Positions 24,107 to 35,584 of a DNA stretch of 36,970 nt are shown piece after piece. The notes under the pieces were generated by a model. It saw only the letters and a list, made by a program, of their open reading frames with translations. It was not told the DNA's origin and did no database searches. The position numbers and the translations under genes are program-made. Numbering within the stretch: the stretch's first letter is position 1; every line of letters starts with the position of its first letter. Source of the stretch: Candidatus Aminicenantes bacterium (lineage in GTDB: Bacteria > Acidobacteriota > Aminicenantia > Aminicenantales > UBA4085); contig JAPKZJ010000057.1 in NCBI GenBank assembly GCA_026393855.1, forward strand, positions 1 to 36,970. Direction: 5' to 3'.

Positions 24107-24174
24107 CCCATCGCGGACGCGGGAAGCGCGCGCCGCCGCCCGCTTCGCCCAAGTCCGCTGAAGAGAGGTTGCCG

Positions 24175-26052
24175 ATGAGAAAGAAAGGCCTGGCCCTTGG
24201 ATTCCTGGCCCTGTCGGCGCTAGCCGCCGCCGTATCGGACCGTCCGCAGAACATGGATTCGCGGGACGGCGACAAGCTCATCCCCGTGGCGCTGAAGCAG
24301 AACGAGCTCAGGGGCGAGATCGGCCGGCGGATCAACGATCTGATCTACAAGAACTACATGGTCCTGGACCCCGAGAAGCAGTTCATCGAGCCTTTCCGCC
24401 TGCGGCCATTCACCAGCGGCGGGCATTATGTGGGCATCGGCAAGGTGATCGACGCGGGAAGCTATTTTACCGCCTACACGGGCGATCCGAAAGTGGCGGA
24501 GCAAACGTCCCGTTTCATCGACGGCATCATCCGAACCCGCGACGCCGACGGTTACATCGGCACCTTCAAGCCCGAACCCGAAGGGCGCCAGAACCATTAC
24601 AACTGGGCCCTGCACGAACAGGAGTATCTGCTGCTCGGCCTGACCCGTCATTATCTGGAAACCGGGAACGGACGCTCCTTGGAGCAGGCCCGGACTCTCG
24701 GCGATTATGTGATCAGGATTTTCTCCAAGGACCCCAAGCCCGAGGAGGTTTGCACGGCCGGGCTCCCCGAAGCCTTCCTCCTGCTCTACCGCTGCACTCA
24801 CGACGAGCGGTATCTGAAGTTTGCGGCGGAGGTCCGGCACGGGAATACGAAGTCAGAGGTTCAATGCGCCTCGCTGCTCGATTGGAAGCAGACGTTCGAT
24901 GCAGGTGCCGCGCACGTCTATGTCATGCTGGCCCGATGCTACGCCCAGACGGAGCTGTACCGTTTCATGAAGAAGCCGTCCCTCCTGGACATGTCGGCGT
25001 ACATGCGCCGCGAGCTGCTGCGCCCGGGAGGCGGCCTCAATGTCGTCGGTTCGGCTTCCGACGGCGAGTGGTTCTCCTATACTCAGAACGGAGCCGGGAT
25101 GATCGGGGAATCGTGCGTGACGGCCTATCTGGTGCGCTGGCTGGAAAGCCTCATGCGCCTGGATGGCGATCTCCGCTACGGCGACATCATGGAGCGGACG
25201 ATCTACAACGCCCTCTTCGCCGCCCAGGATCCGGAGGGCCGGAAGCTGAGGTACTTCACGCCGTTCACGGGGGCGCGGGTCTATTTCGACCAGGACGGCT
25301 TCTGCTGTCCCGGCAATTTCCGCCGCATCATGGCCGAGCTGCCCCGCCAGGTGTACTACCGATGCGCCGACAACGCCATCGCGGTCAATCTTTATACGAC
25401 CTCGACCGCCGCGGTCAAGCTGGACTCCGATCTGTTCGTGACGTTGTCCCAGGAAACGGATTATCCGAACTCGGGTCATGTCGTCTTCCGGGTGACCCCA
25501 TCGCGGGAGGCGGCCTTCGCCCTGCGGCTGCGGATCCCCCGCTGGTGCGGGAAGGCGACTGTTCGGACGAACGACGGCGACGCGGTCGCCGTGCCTGTCG
25601 GAGCATCCCCTTTCGAAATCCGCCGTAAATGGAAGGCCGGCGACACTGTGGTCCTGGACATGCCCATGGCCTGGCGCTTCATCCGGGGGCATCAGCTTCA
25701 GGAAGGCAAGGCGGCCCTGGCCTGGGGGCCCGTGGTGTACTGCCTGGGAACCGCCCAGAACGAGGAAATCCTCAAGAAATATCCGGATTTCAAAGGCATC
25801 GTCATCGATCCGACTTCGCTGGGCCGGCCCGAAAGGGACGACTCGATCCGTCCGGACGGGAGGAAAGTATCGCTCCGGGCCAGAGTCGAAGCCCCCGGAC
25901 GCTGGAGCCAGGGGGCGCCCCGCGAGATCCTGACCTTCACCGAATTCGTCGACCCGACCGGGATCGCGACCTATGTCCACCTTCTGGATCTGGGTGCGGC
26001 CATCGAGGACGAGCTGATGGCGGACTGCTTCGGCTCGTCGAAGATCCGGTAG
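24175..26052 (+). CDS. GH127 family beta-L-arabinofuranosidase-like glycoside hydrolase
   Basis: A 625-residue exported (alpha/alpha)6-barrel glycosidase of the DUF1680/GH127 group, which removes beta-L-arabinofuranose from plant glycans and glycoproteins. The signal sequence is residues 1-20 (RKKGLALGFLALSALAAAV). The unusual cysteine-nucleophile site is conserved: Glu312-x-Cys314 (GMIGESCVTAY) and Cys377-Cys378 (GFCCPGN), equivalent to the Glu/Cys/Cys-Cys zinc and nucleophile cluster of HypBA1. Other family elements are ALHEQEYLLLGLTRHY near the start and the C-terminal LRIPRWC, followed by LPM-like WRFIRGH. The ATG at 24175 has GAGAGG upstream; an in-frame TTG 6 bp earlier is rejected. It is a single gene with no sugar transporter beside it. 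Confidence 0.9.
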   Translation: MRKKGLALGFLALSALAAAVSDRPQNMDSRDGDKLIPVALKQNELRGEIGRRINDLIYKNYMVLDPEKQFIEPFRLRPFTSGGHYVGIGKVIDAGSYFTAYTGDPKVAEQTSRFIDGIIRTRDADGYIGTFKPEPEGRQNHYNWALHEQEYLLLGLTRHYLETGNGRSLEQARTLGDYVIRIFSKDPKPEEVCTAGLPEAFLLLYRCTHDERYLKFAAEVRHGNTKSEVQCASLLDWKQTFDAGAAHVYVMLARCYAQTELYRFMKKPSLLDMSAYMRRELLRPGGGLNVVGSASDGEWFSYTQNGAGMIGESCVTAYLVRWLESLMRLDGDLRYGDIMERTIYNALFAAQDPEGRKLRYFTPFTGARVYFDQDGFCCPGNFRRIMAELPRQVYYRCADNAIAVNLYTTSTAAVKLDSDLFVTLSQETDYPNSGHVVFRVTPSREAAFALRLRIPRWCGKATVRTNDGDAVAVPVGASPFEIRRKWKAGDTVVLDMPMAWRFIRGHQLQEGKAALAWGPVVYCLGTAQNEEILKKYPDFKGIVIDPTSLGRPERDDSIRPDGRKVSLRARVEAPGRWSQGAPREILTFTEFVDPTGIATYVHLLDLGAAIEDELMADCFGSSKIR

Positions 26053-26064
26053 GTCTCGTACGGG

Positions 26065-29007
26065 TCAGAGCAGCTTGAGGGAAAACATAAACTCGTTGCG
26101 TGGAGGCAGCCCCTTTTCCTGGGCCCTGGCGTAGCCGAAGGAAACGGTCGTGTTAAGCAGTGAGAACAGCACGACCCGCAGGTCGAGCTGGACGCCGATA
26201 TTGGCGGCCTGGCGGCGATAAGCGTCGTTATCGAAGTCGGTGACGATGCCGGAGGCGAAGAAGGCCAGGCGGGCCCAATTGCAGAACAGGCTCAGGAAGC
26301 CGAAGCGGCGGAAATGGACCGCCGGCAGGGTCCATTCCAGCATGGCCCGGGCGTAGTTGCGGCCGCCGAGGGCGTTCAGCTCGAGCCCGGGAAAGCTGTA
26401 AAACTCCCGGTAGCGCTTCTCCCCCAGATAGTCGATCCAGTTGTTGCCGAATCCGCCGAAGTAGAAGTTGACGAAATTGTTCGTCCGGTCGCCGAACGAT
26501 TGGCCGGCCGTCGTCCGGAGCCACAGCGAGGAGTGCTTGATCGGCAGGGCCAGCCCATAGTCGAAGATGGCATTGAGGCGGGGATAGAAGTGCCCGTTGA
26601 CGAAGTTGGACCGAGCGAAGACGTGAAAGCGATAGCCCTTCTCCTCGTCCACCGCCCCCAGCGATTTCCGGACGTCGGTGTAGCGCAAGCCGATCCGGGC
26701 GCTCAAGAACCGGTCATAGGTGGCGTCGATGTTCTGGTAGTCGGGCAGCTTGTCCAACCCCCAATACCCGGCCGCCTGGAAGTCGAGCTCCAAGGTTCGG
26801 GGCGTGTCATAGACCAGGTACTTGGAGTAGGCCAAGGCCAGCGAGTATCCTTTGCGGGCCACCTTGGTCGGCCCGAAGAGGTCGTAGAAGCTGGCCCCGT
26901 TGACGGTGGCGCTCAGAGTCCAATTCCAATAATGGTAGCTGAGCGCCAGATGAGGCCGCTCTTTGGCCGGCAGATCCGGGTTGGGCGTATAGGAGGCCGA
27001 GAGGTCGAAACCATTGAAGCGGAGGGGGTTGCGGAAGTCGGCCCGCAGCCCGATCGAAACCGAGTCCTTATAGCCCTCCACGATCGGGTAGATCGAGTTA
27101 AGCCGGATGTCGCGCCAGGAATTGTAGGGGCCGTCGGACCGAACCAGCGATTCGATGGGCACCGAGGCCGGCGAGGGCGGCAGCCAAGTCTTGACGATCG
27201 GGTACTTCTGAACAATTTCTTGGCCCAGGAAGCGGACCGCCCCGACGTCCGGGACCGGTTGGTTGGGAATCCAGCCCGGGACGAACCCGGCGTCGGTAAA
27301 CTTGAACACCAGGAGGGCATCGTCCTTGACTGGGATCGGACGGAAGAATCCCGTCTCGGCGTTGGAGACGACCTCCATCGATCGCTTGGCGAAATCGTAT
27401 CGGAAGATGTTGGAGGCCCCGGTGTAGTAAGAGGAGCCGAAGAGGAACCGGCCGTCCGGCGAATACCGGAAATCGGCCGGCGAATCCGTGCCGAAATCGT
27501 AGAGCGTTTCCATCGCCGGCAGGCCCTTGAGCAGGTCCGCCGTCTTCATCCGGACGAGCTTCTGGGCGCCCGAGACGTCGGCCACGGCCGCCGTGGCGAA
27601 GGCCCCGTCGGGCGAGAGATCCATGTCGTAGATGTCGGTGAAGTAGTCGAACCCGCAGACCGCAGTCCAATCGCGGTACGGCGGTTCGATCTTGACGATC
27701 GTGGACAGGCCGATATTGTGGCGGATGCCCCAGAGGGACTGATCCGCGGGGTTGAAAGCCAGGTCGCCGATGCGGGCGTCCTTGATCAGCGATTCGGTGC
27801 GGCCGCTCTTGAGGTCGACCACGGCCAGATCGCGCAGGGCGCTGTTGTCGGTGGTGAAGAACATCCGGCCGCCGGCCCGGTCGTAGGCCAGGGAAGCGAC
27901 GGAGTAGAGCATGGCCCCCTTGATATCGCAGATCCGATCGATGCGGCCGCTGGCCGTATCCAAGGCCGCAATATGGGCGACCTGGCCCGGGAAGTTGATC
28001 CCGGCATAGATCTTGCCCCCCTCGGGGTCGTAGAAAGCCCGCGAGACCGAGCCCATCTGGGACCGGGTCAGAGGCGTGAATGGGGTCACCGGGTTCTTCC
28101 GGATGAGGGCCAGGTTCGCCTCTTGCCAGACCTTCTCGGCCGCGACCCAATCGCCCCATTCGGCGGCCAGGGGGCGCCCGAACTGCCGCTTGAACTCGGC
28201 CGCGAAATAGCTCTTGCTGCCCTTCGAGGCGGAAGTCCAGTCGACGACCTTCTGGGGACCGTACTTGAGGGCCAAGTGGGTGAAGAAGCGCGTGCCGTAG
28301 AGATACGAGATAGCCCCGATCTGAAAATCAACGGCCGTCCCTTCGGACTCCAGCCCGACCGCGTCATAGATCGTCTTATCCTCCAGAACCTTGGTCCGGA
28401 AGATCATCTCATCGTAAGATCCCAGGGCCCGCCCCAGGCCGCCGTCCATCCAAGTCTCCATGAAGACCGCGATGCCCTCGACGTACCAGCGCGGAGTATA
28501 CGTTCGCGGGCTGGTCAAATAGGCATAGGCCATCGAGATGGGGTTGTCTTTATCGGCCATGACCTTGCCGAAAAACAGGGAGCGGAAGAAGCGGGCCGAT
28601 CCGACCGGCTTGTCCATGGTCACGACATGGACCAGCTCGTGATTCATGATCAGGCTCATCCGCTCGTATCCGGGCATCATGTCGTAAACGTGCTGGAACG
28701 GCGACAGTTCAAGGAAGACCAGATTCTTAGGCACCGCCGTGGCGCCGCCGTTGCCCCAATCGCTGTAGTCCTGCAGGAACAGCGAGGTATTTTCCGCGGG
28801 CTGGTAGTCGAAGAACTTCTTGTAGAATCCCATCGTCGCGGTGAAGCAGCGGGCCAGATGCGAAACGACGAAGGTGTGGGTCTGGTTGTAGTAGACCAGG
28901 TCGAGTCCCGGGCACTTGAAGCTGAACAACGATTGGCCGGTGAGGAGCGACGGCCCGGCCGTCAGGGCGAACAGGATGACGAAGGCGATGGTCAGACGGG
29001 TTCTCAT
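26065..29007 (-). CDS. Exported HExxH metallopeptidase-like / beta-propeller / outer-membrane beta-barrel fusion
   Basis: A 980-residue exported protein with three parts. The signal peptide is residues 1-25. Residues ~30-290 form a gluzincin-like domain (peptidase MA-like): His123-Glu-Leu-Val-His127 (NHELVHVV) and, ~50 residues later, Glu177 in WYVEGIAVFME, giving a complete HExxH...E zinc set. Residues ~310-600 have blade repeats (YSPDGRFLFGSSYY, DLSPDGAFATAAV) typical of TolB/WD40-like propellers. Residues ~650-980 alternate aromatic/hydrophobic strands (LALSYHYWNWTLSATVN) and end FMFSLKLL, with a C-terminal aromatic/hydrophobic strand as in outer-membrane barrels. A surface-anchored protease or peptide-processing protein is inferred. 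It is convergent with GH127, 12 bp apart. Confidence 0.78.
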   Translation of the reverse strand: MRTRLTIAFVILFALTAGPSLLTGQSLFSFKCPGLDLVYYNQTHTFVVSHLARCFTATMGFYKKFFDYQPAENTSLFLQDYSDWGNGGATAVPKNLVFLELSPFQHVYDMMPGYERMSLIMNHELVHVVTMDKPVGSARFFRSLFFGKVMADKDNPISMAYAYLTSPRTYTPRWYVEGIAVFMETWMDGGLGRALGSYDEMIFRTKVLEDKTIYDAVGLESEGTAVDFQIGAISYLYGTRFFTHLALKYGPQKVVDWTSASKGSKSYFAAEFKRQFGRPLAAEWGDWVAAEKVWQEANLALIRKNPVTPFTPLTRSQMGSVSRAFYDPEGGKIYAGINFPGQVAHIAALDTASGRIDRICDIKGAMLYSVASLAYDRAGGRMFFTTDNSALRDLAVVDLKSGRTESLIKDARIGDLAFNPADQSLWGIRHNIGLSTIVKIEPPYRDWTAVCGFDYFTDIYDMDLSPDGAFATAAVADVSGAQKLVRMKTADLLKGLPAMETLYDFGTDSPADFRYSPDGRFLFGSSYYTGASNIFRYDFAKRSMEVVSNAETGFFRPIPVKDDALLVFKFTDAGFVPGWIPNQPVPDVGAVRFLGQEIVQKYPIVKTWLPPSPASVPIESLVRSDGPYNSWRDIRLNSIYPIVEGYKDSVSIGLRADFRNPLRFNGFDLSASYTPNPDLPAKERPHLALSYHYWNWTLSATVNGASFYDLFGPTKVARKGYSLALAYSKYLVYDTPRTLELDFQAAGYWGLDKLPDYQNIDATYDRFLSARIGLRYTDVRKSLGAVDEEKGYRFHVFARSNFVNGHFYPRLNAIFDYGLALPIKHSSLWLRTTAGQSFGDRTNNFVNFYFGGFGNNWIDYLGEKRYREFYSFPGLELNALGGRNYARAMLEWTLPAVHFRRFGFLSLFCNWARLAFFASGIVTDFDNDAYRRQAANIGVQLDLRVVLFSLLNTTVSFGYARAQEKGLPPRNEFMFSLKLL

Positions 29008-29161: not shown

Positions 29162-32100
29162 CTACTTGGCCAGGAGGCCGGCCTCCTTCATCAGGCTGGC
29201 AAAATTCGCTCCCTGCAGGAGGCCGGCGAAATCGGCGTCCTGCATCAGGCCGACGAAGTTCGCGTCCGCCATCATGGCGGCGAATCCGCCGTCCTTGACC
29301 AGGCTGGCGAACTGGGCATTAGCCATCAGGGAGGCGAACTGGGCATTGGCCATCAACCCCGTGAACCGGGAATTGGCCAGCAGGCCGGCGAAGTTGGCGT
29401 CGGCCATCAGGTTGACGAAGGCCGCGCTCTTCAGCAGGCCGGCGAACTGGGCATTGGCCATCAGCCCCGCAAAATTGGCGTTGGCCAGGGCGCCGGCAAA
29501 GCGGGCGCTCTTCATCAATTCGGCGAAGCGGGCGTCGGCCAGCAGGCCGGCAAAGCCGGCGCTCTTGAGCAATCCGGCGAATTCGGCGCTCTTCAGGAGG
29601 CCGGCGAATTCGCCGTTGTCCAGCAGCTTGGCCACCCGGCCCCAAGTCGCGCTGCTGCCGGCCATTTGGAGATTGGCTTGGACGTTGGCGAAGGCCGCGC
29701 TCTTCAACAGGTTGGAGAAGCGGGCGTTGGCCAGAAGGGAGGCATAGGCGGGATCCTGCTGCAGGCCGACGAAATTGGCGCTTTTCAACGCTTCCGCGAA
29801 GGCCGCGCTTTTCATCAGGGCCGCGAATTGGGCGCTCTTGAGCAGGCCTGAGAACTGCGGGTCCTGCAGGCATTCGACGAAGGAGGCGTCGGCCAAAAGA
29901 TTGACGAAGGCCGCGTTCTGGAGCAGCCCGGCGAACTCGGCGCTCTTCATCATCCCGGCGAACTGGGCGCTCTTCATCAAGCCGGCGAAGCGTGCGTCGG
30001 CCATCAGGCCGGCAAAATTAGCGCTCTTCATCAGGCCGGCGAATCCGGCATCCTGCATCAGCCCGGCAAAATTGACGCTCTTCAACAAGCCGGCGAAATT
30101 GGCGTTGGCCAGGAGAGAGGCGAAATGGGCGTTCTGGAGAAGGCCCGCGAACCGGGCGTCGGCCATCAGGTTGGCGAACGAGGCGCTCTTGAGCAGGCCG
30201 GCGAATTGGGCGTTGGCCAGCAGCCCGGAATAGACCGGATCGGCCATCAGGCCGGCGAAATTGGCGCTCCGGACGGCGTTGGCGAAGGAGGCGCTTTTCA
30301 GCAGCGACGCGAACTGGGCGCTCTTCAGCAGGCCGGCGAAGGCCGGGTCCGCCATGAGGCCGGCGAAATTGGCGTTGGCCAGGACGTTGACGAAACCCTC
30401 GTCCTGAAGCAGGGCGGCGAAGTGCGCGTCCGCCATCAGGGCCGAGAACTGGGCGCTCTTCAGTAGGCCGGCGAAATTGGCATTGGCCAGCAGGCCCGCG
30501 AAGTTGGCATCCCTCAACAGGGAGGCGAATTGGGCGTTAGCCAGCAGGCCCGTGAAGCGGGCGCTTTTCATCAAACCCGCGAAGTTAGCGTTGGCCAGGA
30601 GGCCGGAGAACTGGGCGTTCTGCATAAGGCCGGCGAAGGCCGCGTTGGCCAGGAGGCCGGAGAACTGAGCGTTGGCCAGCACCCCGGCGAACGAGGCGCT
30701 CTTGAGCAAATCGACGAAAGCCGCGCTCTTCAGCAAGCCCGCGAACTGGGCGCTCTGCATCAGGTCGGCGAAAGCGGCGCTCCTCATCAGCTCGGCGAAC
30801 TGGGCGCTCTTGAGCAGGCCGGCGAAGGCGGCGCTCTTGAGCAGGCCCGCGAACTGGGCGTTCTGCATCAGGTCGGCGAAAGCGGCGCTCTTCATCAGCT
30901 CGGCGAATTGGGCGCTCTTGAGCAGCTCGGCGTAGGCGGCGTTCTTCATCAGCGCAGCATAATTCGGCTCGGCCTGGAGGCCGGCGAAGCTGCCGCTCTT
31001 GACCGCTTCCGCGAAGGTCGCGCTCTTGAGCAGGCCCGCGAACTCGGCGCTCTTCAGCAAGTCGACGAATGCGGCGCTCTTAAGCAGACCGGCGAACTGG
31101 GCGCTCTTCATCAGCTCGACGAAAGAGGCGCTCTTGAGCAAGCCCGCGAACTCGGCGTTCTGCATCAAGTCGACAAAGGAGGCGCTCTTGAGCAGGCCCG
31201 CGAACTGGGCGCTCTTCATCAGCTCGGCGAACTGGGCGCTCTTCAACAGATCGATAAAAGCGGCGTCCTTCAGCAAACCCGCGAACTGGGCGCTCTTCAT
31301 CAGCTCGGCAAATTGGGCGTTCTTGAGCAGAGCGGCGAAATTCGGCTCGGCCAGGAGGCCGACGAACCCGGGATTCTCGAGCAGGCCGGCGAATTGGGCG
31401 CTCTTGAGCAGAGCGGCGAAATCGGGATCCTGCATCAAGGCGGCGAACTGGGCGTTCTGCATCAGCCCGGCGAAGCTCGGCTGTTCGATGACGTTGACGA
31501 AGCCGGCGCCCTTGAGCAGGCCCGCGAAGTTCGGGTCCTGCATCAGGCCGGCGAAATTGGCGCTCTTGAGAAGCGAGGCGAACTCCGCGTTCTTCATCAG
31601 CGCCGCGAAGTTCGGGTCCGCCTGTAGGCCGGCGAAATTGGCCTGGGCCAATAGGGAGGCGAACTCGGCGTTCTTGAGCACGGCGGCGAAGTTCGGATCC
31701 TGCATCAGGGAGGCGAAGTTCGGATCCTGCATCAGCTTTTGGAAGCGGATGTCGCGGAGCACGTTCTGAACAAAGGGATTCTGGAGCAGCCGGAGGACGT
31801 TTTCCTTAGTCAGGATGACGTCCTTGGCCGACATCTGGCCGGCTCGATATCGGTCGGCCTTGGTGATCGTTCCGGCCACCTGGTCGGCGGCGGTCTTTTT
31901 CCAGAGCTGGGGGCTCAGGATCAGGATCAGGGCGATCACGGCGACAACCGCGACCGCGGCCAGCGAAAACACCTTTTGCTTCTTGGTCATGGGGTCCTCC
32001 TCCAAGTTCCCTCGCCGGATTCCGGCGAGAATATGGGCGGTAAAATCCGGCCCCGGGGCCGGTCCATCCATTGCCTTGATCAGGTCCCGAGACGCCCGCA

Positions 32101-32227
32101 GCTCGGCCCAGCGCTTCCGGGCATCGGCGTCGGCGTCCAAGCGGTCCCGCAGGATCCGGGATTCCGCGGCGGTGTTGGCCCCGTCCAGCTCCTGGTTCAT
32201 CAGCCGGGCCAGGGGCTTGTCAATCAT
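29162..32227 (-). CDS. Giant nonapeptide-repeat membrane protein with anti-sigma-like N-terminus
   Basis: A 1021-residue protein. Residues 1-75 (MIDKPLARLMNQELDGA ... AHILAGIRRG) look like the helical N-terminus of ECF anti-sigma factors, but with no His/Cys zinc motif. TKKQK precedes one membrane segment (~86-105, FSLAAVAVVAVIALILIL), placing the N-terminus inside. After a ~55-residue linker, residues 162-1017 consist of 94 nine-residue repeats, consensus F-A-G-L-[LM]-x-[SND]-[AP]-x, broken only by residues 855-864. Position 1 is Phe in 89 units, Tyr in 4 and Val in 1. It ends LLAK. Start ATG 32227 lies inside the sigma gene end (8-bp overlap), with AAGGA ~10 bp upstream. I do not recognise the repeat as a named family; function is inferred only from context (ECF sigma, PrsW). 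Confidence 0.85.
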   Translation of the reverse strand: MIDKPLARLMNQELDGANTAAESRILRDRLDADADARKRWAELRASRDLIKAMDGPAPGPDFTAHILAGIRRGNLEEDPMTKKQKVFSLAAVAVVAVIALILILSPQLWKKTAADQVAGTITKADRYRAGQMSAKDVILTKENVLRLLQNPFVQNVLRDIRFQKLMQDPNFASLMQDPNFAAVLKNAEFASLLAQANFAGLQADPNFAALMKNAEFASLLKSANFAGLMQDPNFAGLLKGAGFVNVIEQPSFAGLMQNAQFAALMQDPDFAALLKSAQFAGLLENPGFVGLLAEPNFAALLKNAQFAELMKSAQFAGLLKDAAFIDLLKSAQFAELMKSAQFAGLLKSASFVDLMQNAEFAGLLKSASFVELMKSAQFAGLLKSAAFVDLLKSAEFAGLLKSATFAEAVKSGSFAGLQAEPNYAALMKNAAYAELLKSAQFAELMKSAAFADLMQNAQFAGLLKSAAFAGLLKSAQFAELMRSAAFADLMQSAQFAGLLKSAAFVDLLKSASFAGVLANAQFSGLLANAAFAGLMQNAQFSGLLANANFAGLMKSARFTGLLANAQFASLLRDANFAGLLANANFAGLLKSAQFSALMADAHFAALLQDEGFVNVLANANFAGLMADPAFAGLLKSAQFASLLKSASFANAVRSANFAGLMADPVYSGLLANAQFAGLLKSASFANLMADARFAGLLQNAHFASLLANANFAGLLKSVNFAGLMQDAGFAGLMKSANFAGLMADARFAGLMKSAQFAGMMKSAEFAGLLQNAAFVNLLADASFVECLQDPQFSGLLKSAQFAALMKSAAFAEALKSANFVGLQQDPAYASLLANARFSNLLKSAAFANVQANLQMAGSSATWGRVAKLLDNGEFAGLLKSAEFAGLLKSAGFAGLLADARFAELMKSARFAGALANANFAGLMANAQFAGLLKSAAFVNLMADANFAGLLANSRFTGLMANAQFASLMANAQFASLVKDGGFAAMMADANFVGLMQDADFAGLLQGANFASLMKEAGLLAK
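29177..31744 (-). repeat. 27-bp-period coding repeat array (94 units)
   Basis: The array encodes residues 162-1017 of the giant-repeat protein in strict 27-bp register, with 77 units (31744-29666), a 30-bp break (29665-29636) and 17 more units. Units differ at synonymous and non-synonymous sites, so most copies are old. Some blocks are nearly identical, such as 30733-30817 and 30841-30925, which are 108 bp apart. Position 7 is mostly Ser, Asn or Asp, and position 8 Ala or Pro. Variants cluster as KSA, QDP, QNA, ANA and ADA types. The complementary strand is also largely open, but only because the repeat lacks stops in that frame. Confidence 0.92.
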
Positions 32228-32765
32228 GGGCCTGGCGTCCTTCCCGCCCGACAAGCTCACGCATCCGGTCCCGGGCTGCAAACAGACGGGATTTGACTTT
32301 CCGTTCCGGAAGGCCCAGTGTCGCCGCCATCTCGCGGTAGGAAAGCCCTTCCGCGCTCAGGGCCAAGAGGGCTCGCTGGCCCGGGGCCAAGCTTCCCATC
32401 ACCATCTCGAAGCGCCCCCGCTCCTCGGCCGCGGCCATCTCGGCCGCGGGATCAGGCGATGCGGCCGCCCAATCCGGCCCGGACGGCGCGCGGCGGTCCC
32501 GCTTGGCGGCGAAGTTGATCGATTCGTTGACGGCAATCCGGTAAAGCCAGCTGAAGAATTTGAACCGGGGGTCGTAGGCGCTCAGCTTGGCATAAGCCTT
32601 GATGAAGACGGATTGGGCGACGTCCCTGGCGTCTTCTTGGTTTCGGACGATGCGGTAAGCCAAGTTCAGCACCGGTCGCTCGTAGCGGCGAATGATCTCC
32701 TCAAAAGCCGCGACCTCTCCCTCGAGGCACCTGCGGACGGACTCGAGGTCGGTCGGTTCACTCAT
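32220..32765 (-). CDS. ECF-type RNA polymerase sigma factor
   Basis: A 181-residue sigma70-family factor with only regions 2 and 4. Region 2 runs ~10-85: FEEIIRRYERPVLNLAYRIV, then NQEDARDVAQSVFIKAY (the D-x-E/Q-D-x2-Q core that contacts polymerase) and FFSWLYRIAVNESINF for -10 recognition. Region 4 runs ~120-172: LSYREMAATLGLPERKVKSRLFAAR, the helix-turn-helix. It resembles the RpoE/SigW group. ATG 32765 lacks a clear Shine-Dalgarno site. Its stop overlaps the start of the giant-repeat anti-sigma-like gene by 8 bp, so the two are translationally coupled, the usual arrangement for an ECF sigma and its anti-sigma. Confidence 0.93.
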   Translation of the reverse strand: MSEPTDLESVRRCLEGEVAAFEEIIRRYERPVLNLAYRIVRNQEDARDVAQSVFIKAYAKLSAYDPRFKFFSWLYRIAVNESINFAAKRDRRAPSGPDWAAASPDPAAEMAAAEERGRFEMVMGSLAPGQRALLALSAEGLSYREMAATLGLPERKVKSRLFAARDRMRELVGREGRQAHD

Positions 32766-32834: not shown

Positions 32835-32884
32835 GGGCCAAAAGTCCTTTCAGCAATCGGATGCCGAAAATATACTTTGGCCCC
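32835..32884. promoter_or_regulatory. Long inverted repeat in the sigma/prsW divergent gap
   Basis: GGGCCAAAAGT (32835-32845) and ACTTTGGCCCC (32874-32884) are inverted copies apart from one extra A, separated by 28 bp. The arms bracket the candidate prsW promoter, so this could be an operator for that promoter or for the divergent sigma gene. Pairing as RNA is also possible; nothing in the sequence decides between these. Confidence 0.4.
32848..32876 (+). promoter_or_regulatory. Candidate promoter of the prsW-like gene
   Basis: TTTCAG (32848-32853), 17 bp, then TATACT (32871-32876), about 75 bp before the start. The -10 is 5 of 6; the -35 is weak (3 of 6). It lies between the two arms of the inverted repeat at 32835-32884. 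Confidence 0.45.
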
Positions 32885-32950
32885 GCCGACCCTGTCAAGG
32901 CCGGCCGACGGCCCGAGCCGCGGCTTGACTGGGCGGAGGAATGTCATAAA

Positions 32951-33997
32951 ATGACAAGCGAAAACGACGCCATGGCGAATACCCTGCCGATCCTGGCCCT
33001 GAAAACCCTGGTCGGCCTGCTTCCCGTGCTCGTCTTCCTCCTGGCCCTGGTCTTCCTGGACAGCTACAAGCTGGTCCGCTTGAACGCCCTCCTTCTCGCC
33101 GTCCTGGGCGGAGGCCTGGCGGCAGCGATCGGCTACTTCGCCAACACGAACCTGATGCCCCTGTTCCAGAGGGATTTCGCGCTCTATTCCCGCTATATCG
33201 CCCCCCTGATCGAAGAGGGGCTGAAGGCCTGCGTCGTCCTGGCCTTTTTCCGGGCCCGGCGGATCGGCTTCCTCGTCGACGCCGCCATCTTCGGCTTCGC
33301 GGCCGGGGCCGGTTTCTCGCTGGCCGAGAACATCTATTATCTGAACGCCTCGCCCGAAGCAGGGCTGGCCGTCTGGATCATCCGCGGCTTCGGCACGGCC
33401 ATGATGCACGGCGGCACGACGGCCATCTTCGCCGCCGTAGCCAAGTCGGTCTCGGACCGCCGCGACATGTCGGCGGGACTGGCCGGACTGCCCGGGTTCG
33501 CCATTGCGTTCCTCGTCCATTCCGCTTTCAACCACTTTCTCTTGCCCCCGCTCCTGGCGACCGCCGCCATCCTCGTCTTCCTGCCCCTGGTCGCCGTCAA
33601 CGTCTTTCTGGTCAGCGAACGGGGCACCCGCAAGTGGCTGGACGTAGGCTTCGACTCGGACGTCGAGCTGCTGGGCCTCATCACCGCCGGACGCGCTTCA
33701 ACCACCAAGGTCGGCCAATATCTGCTGGCCCTGAAGGGCAAGTTCCCCGGCGAGGTCGTGGCCGACATGCTCTGCCTGATCCGCCTCCACCTCGAGCTGT
33801 CGATCAGCGCCAAGGGCCTCCTGTTGCTGCGGGAGGCGGGATTTCCGGCCCCGGCCGACCCCGCGGTCAGCGAGAAGTTCGCCGAGCTCAAGTACCTGGA
33901 GAAAAGCGTCGGCAAGACGGGGATGCTGGCCGTCGGCCCGCTCCTGCACCGCAGCCGGCGCGATCTCTGGGAGCTTCACATGCTGGGCATGAAGTAA
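32951..33997 (+). CDS. PrsW family intramembrane metalloprotease
   Basis: A 348-residue protein with about seven membrane segments in residues 10-230 and a ~115-residue soluble tail. PrsW motifs are intact: Glu88-Glu89 in APLIEEGLKA (EExxK), Glu126 in GFSLAENIYY (FxxxE), His153 in GTAMMHGGTT and His190 in LVHSAFNH. In Bacillus subtilis PrsW makes the first cut in the anti-sigma factor RsiW, releasing SigW. The gene is divergent from an ECF sigma/anti-sigma pair, which makes the giant-repeat protein its natural candidate substrate (inference). ATG 32951 follows GGAGGA at 10 bp. The tail, with LKGKFPGEVVADMLCLIRLHLEL, is additional to the minimal family core. Confidence 0.88.
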   Translation: MTSENDAMANTLPILALKTLVGLLPVLVFLLALVFLDSYKLVRLNALLLAVLGGGLAAAIGYFANTNLMPLFQRDFALYSRYIAPLIEEGLKACVVLAFFRARRIGFLVDAAIFGFAAGAGFSLAENIYYLNASPEAGLAVWIIRGFGTAMMHGGTTAIFAAVAKSVSDRRDMSAGLAGLPGFAIAFLVHSAFNHFLLPPLLATAAILVFLPLVAVNVFLVSERGTRKWLDVGFDSDVELLGLITAGRASTTKVGQYLLALKGKFPGEVVADMLCLIRLHLELSISAKGLLLLREAGFPAPADPAVSEKFAELKYLEKSVGKTGMLAVGPLLHRSRRDLWELHMLGMK

Positions 33998-34012: not shown

Positions 34013-35584
34013 TCAATCGTCGGAAGGCCCGATCGGGCCCGGCCCTTTGTATTTAAGCGCGACCATGGTGATGTCGTCCGAGGGCGGGTTTTCCCGGACG
34101 AAGGCCTTGACGGCGCCGCGGGCCCGGTGGACGAGCGCTTCCGCATCCAGGGCCGTCGCCCCGGCCAAGCCTTCAATCAAGCGGGCCTCGGAGAACAATC
34201 GATCCGACGCGTCCATCGCCTCGGTCACGCCGTCGGTGTAGAGGAAGACGGTTTCGCCCGGCCGCAGGACCCTACTTGTGGTCCGGAAGGCATCGCTCTC
34301 GAACGCGCCCAGGATCGTCCCCGTCGGCCCTTCGAGGGGCACGAATCCGGCCGGGCCGGCCGAGACAAGCGGGGCCGGGTGGCCGCCGTTGGCGTATTGG
34401 AGCTCCCCGGTCTTGACGTCCAGGACAAGCAGATAGACGGTGACGAACATCAGGGTCTCGTTGTCGGGGATCAGGGTCCGGTTGACCCGGGCCAGAATTT
34501 CGGCCGGCAGCAGTCCGCGCAGGGCCTCGGTCTTGAGCAGGGTCTTGCAGATGGCCATGAACAGGGCCGCCGGGACGCCCTTGCCGGACACGTCGCCGAC
34601 CAGGACGCAGAGCTTCCGATCGTCGATGAGAAAGAAATCAAAGAAATCCCCGCCGACCTCCTTGGCCGGCTCCATCACCGCGTAGATGTCGAACTCGGTC
34701 CGGTCGGGAAACGGCGGAAAGATCCGCGGCAGCATGCTGGCCTGGATGTCGCGGGCAATCCGCAGCTCGCTTTGGATCCTCTCCTTGGCCTCGGTCTCGG
34801 CCCTCAGGTTCTCGATGAAGCGCTTGATGCACAGGTGGACGAGCTGGAAGGCCAGGGCCGAGTCCCGGTTGAAGAGCCGGATGACGTCGTCCTTGTCGAT
34901 CGTGTACGCCTCGAGGTCCTCTGCGCAGACGGCCGAGGCCGTGCGGGCGTGGAACGGCGAGAGGATGCCCATCTCGCCGATGACCTCCCCTTCTTTGACC
35001 ACCTTATCGATCTCGATGAGCTTGAGCGAGCCGCGGGCGACATAGAACATCTTGTCGGCCCGGTCCCCCGCCTTGAACAGGACGTCGCCCTTCTTGTACG
35101 TCTCCCGGTTCATCGAGGCCAGGGGAAATCGTAGATCGTCGTCGGCCGCCGCGGCGGTTCGGGCGTTCGCGGGCTTGTCCGGCCCGAGGCGGAGGCGAAG
35201 GATGTTCTTGTCGCTCTCCCGCCGGTAGTCCACCTCGTCCACCATGTTCAAAAGGAAAAAGACGCCGAGCCCGCCGATCTTGCGATCCTCCAAACCGCTC
35301 CGCAGGTCCGGAGGCGGAACGGACCGGACGTCGAAGGGCACCCCCGTGTCCTCGATCTCGAGGATGGAATTCCCGGGCTCAGGGCCGGATTCCCAGATCA
35401 ATTCGATGTCTCCGGGGATGCCGATGTACGCGTGGCGGATGATATTGACGACGGCTTCCTCGACGGCCAGCTGGACCTCCCCCGTCCGGAGGGACGAATA
35501 GCCCGCCGCGGCCGAGCGGGCCGCGACGAAGGCCAGGAAGGGATTGAGGGACTCGAGCCGGGCGGGCAGGCGGAGGCGGGGCAA
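34013..35584 (-). CDS. Fusion of RsbW-like ATPase, cyclic-nucleotide-binding domain and SpoIIE phosphatase
   Basis: A 523-residue cytoplasmic regulator. Residues ~10-135 are a GHKL/HATPase_c domain of the anti-sigma kinase type (AVEEAVVNIIRHAY with Asn47; DTGVPFD; GGLGVFFL). Residues ~155-260 are a cNMP-binding domain with the phosphate cassette GEVIGEMGIL...ARTAS (Glu204, Arg214). A helical linker (ETEAKERIQSELRIARDIQASMLP) leads to the PP2C/SpoIIE domain, with metal Asp313 (GGDFFDFF), Asp331 (VGDVSGKG), NGGHPAPL, LYTDGVTEAMD and SDDITM. Kinase and phosphatase in one chain could set the phosphorylation of the STAS protein encoded 22 bp upstream. The start is TTG 35584 with GGAG ~8 bp before; no ATG serves. 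It is convergent with prsW. Confidence 0.9.
   Translation of the reverse strand: MPRLRLPARLESLNPFLAFVAARSAAAGYSSLRTGEVQLAVEEAVVNIIRHAYIGIPGDIELIWESGPEPGNSILEIEDTGVPFDVRSVPPPDLRSGLEDRKIGGLGVFFLLNMVDEVDYRRESDKNILRLRLGPDKPANARTAAAADDDLRFPLASMNRETYKKGDVLFKAGDRADKMFYVARGSLKLIEIDKVVKEGEVIGEMGILSPFHARTASAVCAEDLEAYTIDKDDVIRLFNRDSALAFQLVHLCIKRFIENLRAETEAKERIQSELRIARDIQASMLPRIFPPFPDRTEFDIYAVMEPAKEVGGDFFDFFLIDDRKLCVLVGDVSGKGVPAALFMAICKTLLKTEALRGLLPAEILARVNRTLIPDNETLMFVTVYLLVLDVKTGELQYANGGHPAPLVSAGPAGFVPLEGPTGTILGAFESDAFRTTSRVLRPGETVFLYTDGVTEAMDASDRLFSEARLIEGLAGATALDAEALVHRARGAVKAFVRENPPSDDITMVALKYKGPGPIGPSDD

Follow-up and report, generated by a model that had tools for sequence, protein, structure and literature searches.

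Organization of the locus

The window, the whole stretch of 36 970 nucleotides of Candidatus Aminicenantes DNA analysed here, encodes on its reverse strand a protein of 1021 residues comprising an anti-sigma domain, a single transmembrane (TM) helix, a conserved head and a long array of nine-residue repeats. The gene has the following features (G and L numbers denote genomes and loci, respectively).

29162..32227 (-): whole open reading frame, 1021 aa; anti-sigma domain, TM helix, head and 93-unit nonapeptide array
32003..32227 (-): RsiW-type sigma-binding domain, residues 1-75, zinc ligands absent (RsiW profile match, Foldseek)
31996..32003 (-): internal Shine-Dalgarno sequence GGAGGAGG, 5 nt ahead of the internal ATG; duplex dG -12.1 kcal/mol
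31988..31990 (-): internal ATG, Met80; corresponds to the first codon of the array gene where this is separate (G076 and G008)
31919..31981 (-): single TM helix, residues 83-103, preceded by basic residues (AlphaFold2 helix 83-103, modelled with low confidence); every homologue is hydrophobic here
31745..31990 (-): conserved TM and head, residues 80-161, the family signature in the alignment (GTITKADRYRAGQMSAKDVxL...LLQNP)
29666..31744 (-): first part of the array, residues 162-854, with 77 nonapeptide units
29609..29665 (-): residues 855-873, an irregular 19-residue stretch, MAGSSATWGRVAKLLDNGE, equal to two units plus one residue, shifting the register by one residue
29177..29608 (-): second part of the array, residues 874-1017, with 16 units

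Counted in register, the array contains 93 units (77 + 16), 84 of them distinct, with the consensus F-A-[GSAEN]-L-[LM]-[KAQ]-[SND]-[AP]-x; position 1 is Phe in 89 units and Tyr in four. An earlier note on this DNA had given the consensus as F-A-G-L-[LM]-x-[SND]-[AP]-x, with which the in-register units agree, and had reported 94 units with a single ten-residue break. The periodicity itself stands, but the supernumerary unit is a degenerate one, starting with V, that belongs to the irregular stretch, and the one-residue register shift, although real, lies within these 19 residues, which are absent from the G002 and G076 arrays. In the autocorrelation of the array the identity is 0.475 at lag 9 and 0.48-0.52 at lags 18-36, compared with about 0.05-0.1 at other lags. 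A weak four-unit superperiod (0.52 at lag 36 versus 0.47) is absent from other arrays.

Authenticity of the array and selection

The window comes from a draft genome of 144 contigs, a circumstance that would suit an assembly artefact or a chance periodicity, and an artefact was among the refutations that the earlier note had envisaged. The longest exact DNA repeat within the array is only 32 bp, however, and the gene is present in G002 at 66% identity and has been recovered from many other genomes, so that we regard this explanation as practically negligible. Compared with the G002 orthologue, the array has a dN of 0.231 and a dS of 0.841 (dN/dS of about 0.27), and identity by unit phase is 0.89, 0.88 and 0.80 at positions 1, 4 and 8, but only 0.45 and 0.46 at positions 3 and 9. 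The low dN/dS and the phase-specific conservation indicate that selection keeps the period and the hydrophobic positions. They also weigh against the array being a low-complexity expansion, lacking a specific function, on an ordinary anti-sigma factor. Such an expansion would fit both the homogenization of repeats within each lineage (lag-9 identity of up to 0.82-0.84 in L072 and L079) and the fact that many length differences between relatives amount to whole units; the period nevertheless persists across families of the phylum while the sequence diverges, and we consider an expansion of this kind very improbable.

Predicted structure of the array

AlphaFold2 models of moderate confidence (pLDDT 60-83, pTM 0.36-0.53), in which the TM and linker region is poorly modelled, were obtained for the full protein with five relatives and for residues 80-400 with 20 diverse relatives. 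The former predicts one seven-residue helix per nine-residue unit throughout the entire array (pLDDT about 60-78, pTM 0.36), as had been proposed from the sequence, and the latter agrees (pTM 0.53, with a pLDDT of 75-83 in most of the array). At this level of confidence the array would be a solenoid or rod of stacked short helices, the superhelix geometry of which is not settled. Foldseek searches of the PDB with both models gave no match at E <= 0.001, and the repeat fold may be new. A likeness to BurrH/TALE (Foldseek E 1.1e-3, TM 0.12) was set aside as that of a generic superhelix that the better model does not support. A viral fold library returned merely weak tape-measure-like helices (E >= 0.17), and Pfam matches to Med31, Plasmodium_HRP, Phlebovirus_NSM and similar entries were driven by composition.

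Judged by sequence, the nearest likeness of the array is to the STI1/HOP DP domain. Pfam PF17830 (STI1-HOP_DP) scores above its gathering cut-off, in keeping with the resemblance of the MQDP/NP units to STI1/DP motifs remarked on earlier, and is matched in 11 of 21 relatives; STI1 DP2 (PDB 2llw) is among the solved sequences nearest to the array (E 0.035). DP/NP helix starts and short Leu/Met-rich helices are common to both, whereas the DP domain is a single domain of ~55 residues and the array an open-ended tandem of equal-length units. The best stretch (residues 161-186) covers profile positions 4-29 of 55, about half of the profile rather than the full ~55-residue domain, and none of the Foldseek PDB matches has a DP-domain fold; membership is therefore not claimed. 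With RTX repeats the array shares a nine-residue period and a presumed extracytoplasmic location, but RTX units form a Ca2+ beta-roll with the motif GGxGxDxUx, whereas the array has the pattern FA-L-[LM]--A-, is helical in the models and lacks the Gly/Asp signature. The resemblance of A-[NQ]-F-A-G in the array to the pentapeptide motif is superficial, since pentapeptide repeats have a period of five and form a beta-helix, whereas the array has a period of nine (identity 0.046 at lag 5 versus 0.475 at lag 9) and is predicted to be helical. The earlier separation of the array from both families is thus upheld.

Sigma-binding domain and gene neighbourhood

The sigma-binding domain, residues 1-75, is of the RsiW type, with RsiW as the best solved relative, which bears out the anti-sigma likeness noticed previously. 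A profile of these residues and their relatives matched RsiW (5wuq) at E 2.1e-12 over positions 4-72, and RsiW chains were found by Foldseek with a TMt of 0.71 and a probability of 1.00, although with E values of 2-3 for the whole model. The region is also homologous to the stand-alone anti-sigma of G076 and G008. It lacks the ZAS motif H-x3-C-x2-C, the aligned window positions being neither His nor Cys; the zinc motif is present in the distant family members L080 and L092. The basic N-terminal flank and the single TM helix are consistent with the topology suggested earlier, in which the array would lie outside the membrane and the sigma-binding domain inside. The neighbouring features are as follows.

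32220..32765 (-): ECF sigma factor, presumed partner (Pfam Sigma70_r2 1.3e-15, r4_2 5e-11)
26065..29007 (-): conserved partner downstream, 980 aa; HExxH...E metalloprotease-like domain, propeller and barrel-like C-terminus
32861..33997 (+): PrsW-family intramembrane protease, divergent (PF13367 3.3e-20); likely start near 32951-32972
32869..32898 (-): promoter of the sigma/array operon, of the sigma-70 type (TTGACA-18-TATATT) and conserved across five related genomes

The first 8 bp of the array reading frame, including its ATG, are shared with the 3' end of the sigma gene, and an overlap or near-overlap is found in most other fused members. Orthologues of this sigma factor (56-67% identity) are confined to the tandem-array genomes G000, G001, G002, G008 and G076 among the neighbours of the window; G003, G004 and G011 have neither a tandem array nor the orthologous sigma, and in G010 the array is degenerate and the orthologous sigma missing.

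The array, the 980-residue protein and PrsW are encoded in a phylum-wide run of genes. In all 21 loci with contig coverage there, apart from the G160 paralogue L092, the gene for the 980-residue protein comes immediately after that for the array. Among 20 aligned homologues of the 980-residue protein, 19 preserve the HELVH motif and Glu177; the protein has weak matches to Omp85_2 and PD40. The PrsW motif residues (E118, E119, K122, H183 and H220) are likewise conserved in 19 of 20, the overall range for the HExxH+E and PrsW motifs being 18-20 of 20; the prsW gene lies downstream of the 980-residue protein in most of the phylum and is divergent from the sigma gene in the window. Most loci have an ECF sigma gene within the same run, and an anti-sigma gene is usually present too; no sigma gene is adjacent in L026, L079 and L084. 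Of these, L079 and L084 encode the array-family protein, the 980-residue protein and PrsW without an adjacent sigma, and from them sigma control may not be the sole or original role of the system. A simple scan upstream of the sigma gene found no ECF-type autoregulatory promoter. Since the operon promoter is of the sigma-70 type and conserved, control of the system is probably post-translational.

Two further genes flank the operon in the window: one for a SpoIIE phosphatase/HATPase/cyclic-nucleotide-binding protein (34013-35584, -) and one for a GH127 beta-L-arabinofuranosidase-like protein (24169-26052, +). SpoIIE/HATPase-like genes also occur near the loci of many relatives (L072-L078, L089 and L094), a hint that a partner-switching module adjoins the ECF system.

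Distribution in Acidobacteriota

The array protein belongs to a family, newly recognized here, that occurs in the phylum Acidobacteriota and has a conserved head. A profile of the TM and head was applied at three taxonomic levels within Acidobacteriota and identified members in six of 94 order-level genomes, in 13 of 142 at class level and in 17 of 396 genomes sampled phylum-wide; a contig search yielded one close relative, an Acidobacteriota MAG. No description of the family was found in the open-access literature on nine-residue helical repeats, Acidobacteria PrsW or dual-start anti-sigmas. Most members have a nine-residue array of lineage-specific sequence (FAGLMADRR, FQSVLANPN, LAALSNKDV, REALAKADV, FTALLGNAG or LRKALFSEP), with lag-9 identity of up to 0.84. 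Within any one protein the repeat copies are homogenized, but from protein to protein they differ; the period and the head persist. The nonapeptide pattern is lost or altered in L026, L084, L092, L093 and L094. Since array length varies among relatives from about 11 to 93 units, the array is no fixed ruler.

Individual members show further peculiarities. L074 and L076 (G124 and G130) have a clear 18-residue (two-unit) superperiod, SKAWAGLRANPDFTALMA, in which Trp and Phe units alternate. The operon and head are kept in L093 (G349) and L094 (G203) with a repeat that is no longer a nonapeptide (that of L094 is coiled-coil-like and ANR/ESR-rich), which suggests that the array type itself is swappable. 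Two members are encoded by G160, as though the system had been divided: L092 carries a fused anti-sigma domain of the zinc type and has a sigma gene as neighbour, and L084 is found next to PrsW and the 980-residue protein.

Gene fusion and internal start

The membrane 'stub' of the window protein is the product of a gene fusion, a derived state: G076 and G008 encode the anti-sigma separately, with a TM helix and a periplasmic domain of its own, and their array gene begins at the codon equivalent to Met80. In a supported tree of the 980-residue protein, the fusion of the window is nested inside lineages with separate genes, and the fused or separate state has changed at least three times over the phylum. 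Fusions of the anti-sigma and the array occur in the genus of the window and elsewhere, and the fused frames of other families share the same layout; because fusion recurs, a physical partnership between anti-sigma and array is indicated by the Rosetta-stone argument. The earlier description of an anti-sigma-like membrane stub was therefore correct as to the anti-sigma, but missed the derived fusion, the internal start and the phylum-wide operon with the HExxH protein and PrsW.

Shine-Dalgarno duplexes have a dG of -8.1 or lower at 27 of 28 family starts, including nine of ten internal starts of fused frames, against a background in which 2.2% of 717 other ATGs reach -8. The internal start at Met80 is the stronger start. 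The simplest reading of these signals is that both sigma-binding and array-only products would be made from fused genes. The alternative, an ancestral start that is retained without use, is less likely because the start has been retained in several separate lineages. Clade f11 has no full anti-sigma domain and instead has a short conserved leader (RELKKYY...), which in the majority of members has a start of its own, upstream of the internal start. The G076 locus (L022) is nearer to the genus of the window than is that of G008, which is of the same family, although G076 belongs to another; its placement may reflect horizontal transfer or contamination (G076 is listed at 6% contamination).

Proposed mechanism and alternatives

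RsiW is cleaved by PrsW and then by RasP (PMC5358783). The system in the window resembles RsiW/SigW/PrsW of B. subtilis in its N-terminal sigma-binding fold, its single TM helix, the ECF sigma encoded just upstream and the nearby PrsW; it differs in lacking zinc ligands, in having a nonapeptide array as its extracytoplasmic part and in the addition of a conserved HExxH envelope protein to the operon. From the computed domain make-up, array, conserved operon, repeated fusion and internal start site, we infer a scheme of cellular topology, partner contact, proteolysis, signal and internal start use in which the protein is, with reasonable probability, an anti-sigma of the RsiW kind, subject to regulated proteolysis, whose periplasmic sensor is the helical nonapeptide array. 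Residues 1-75 would retain the co-encoded ECF sigma at the membrane, and the array would replace the usual periplasmic domain of RsiW-like anti-sigmas. Located in the periplasm, it would act with the adjacently encoded HExxH/propeller/barrel-like envelope protein to sense the envelope. A disturbance of the envelope or of the partner would make the anti-sigma accessible to the HExxH protein or PrsW, one of which would perform the site-1 cleavage; intramembrane degradation would follow and release the sigma. The Met80 product, consisting of the TM helix and array only, would be produced alongside the sigma-binding form, probably in excess of it, and may co-assemble with this form and tune it.

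Two other functions of the array were weighed. The array could be a structural tether or spacer that connects the inner membrane to the 980-residue outer-membrane-type protein, with the array-only product as the main form and sigma control as a secondary property gained by fusion. The stronger internal start, the separate array and anti-sigma genes of the sister lineages and the retention of the array-family and 980-residue proteins without an adjacent sigma in L079 and L084 all agree with this proposal, but the wide variation in array length, the recurrent fusion with the anti-sigma and the loss of the orthologous sigma that accompanies array degeneration in G010 do not, and we regard it as possible but doubtful. 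Alternatively, an STI1/DP-like hydrophobic groove could make the array a periplasmic chaperone or holdase for misfolded or unassembled outer-membrane proteins, its occupancy being signalled (by titration) through the anti-sigma domain. The PF17830 and 2llw matches described above point in this direction, and many units would suit multivalent binding. Yet the DP profile aligns over only part of its length, in tandem DPxFAxLM units, no DP-domain structure appears among the Foldseek matches and the DP dipeptide is missing in lineages that keep the period (FAGLMADRR and REALAKADV), which makes a holdase function unlikely.

Returning to the array as the sensor of an RsiW-kind anti-sigma, we propose more tentatively, at slightly less than even chances, that the system represents an undescribed class of envelope-stress system of Acidobacteriota, characterized by a new helical nonapeptide sensor fold with free sequence turnover at a fixed period, by an HExxH/propeller/barrel partner together with PrsW, and by two products per fused gene from in-frame starts.

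Implications

Anti-sigma factors are common, but to our knowledge few of the signals sensed by their extracytoplasmic parts have been identified. The phylum-wide operon offers a defined sensor-like part, namely a repeat whose sequence drifts while its period does not, together with a candidate partner in sensing and a site-1 protease of a known type, and thereby makes the pathway directly testable. The array is a candidate for a new solenoid class, as no similar solved structure was found in the searches made, and the repeated anti-sigma/array fusions that keep the internal start provide a natural test of dual-product genes.
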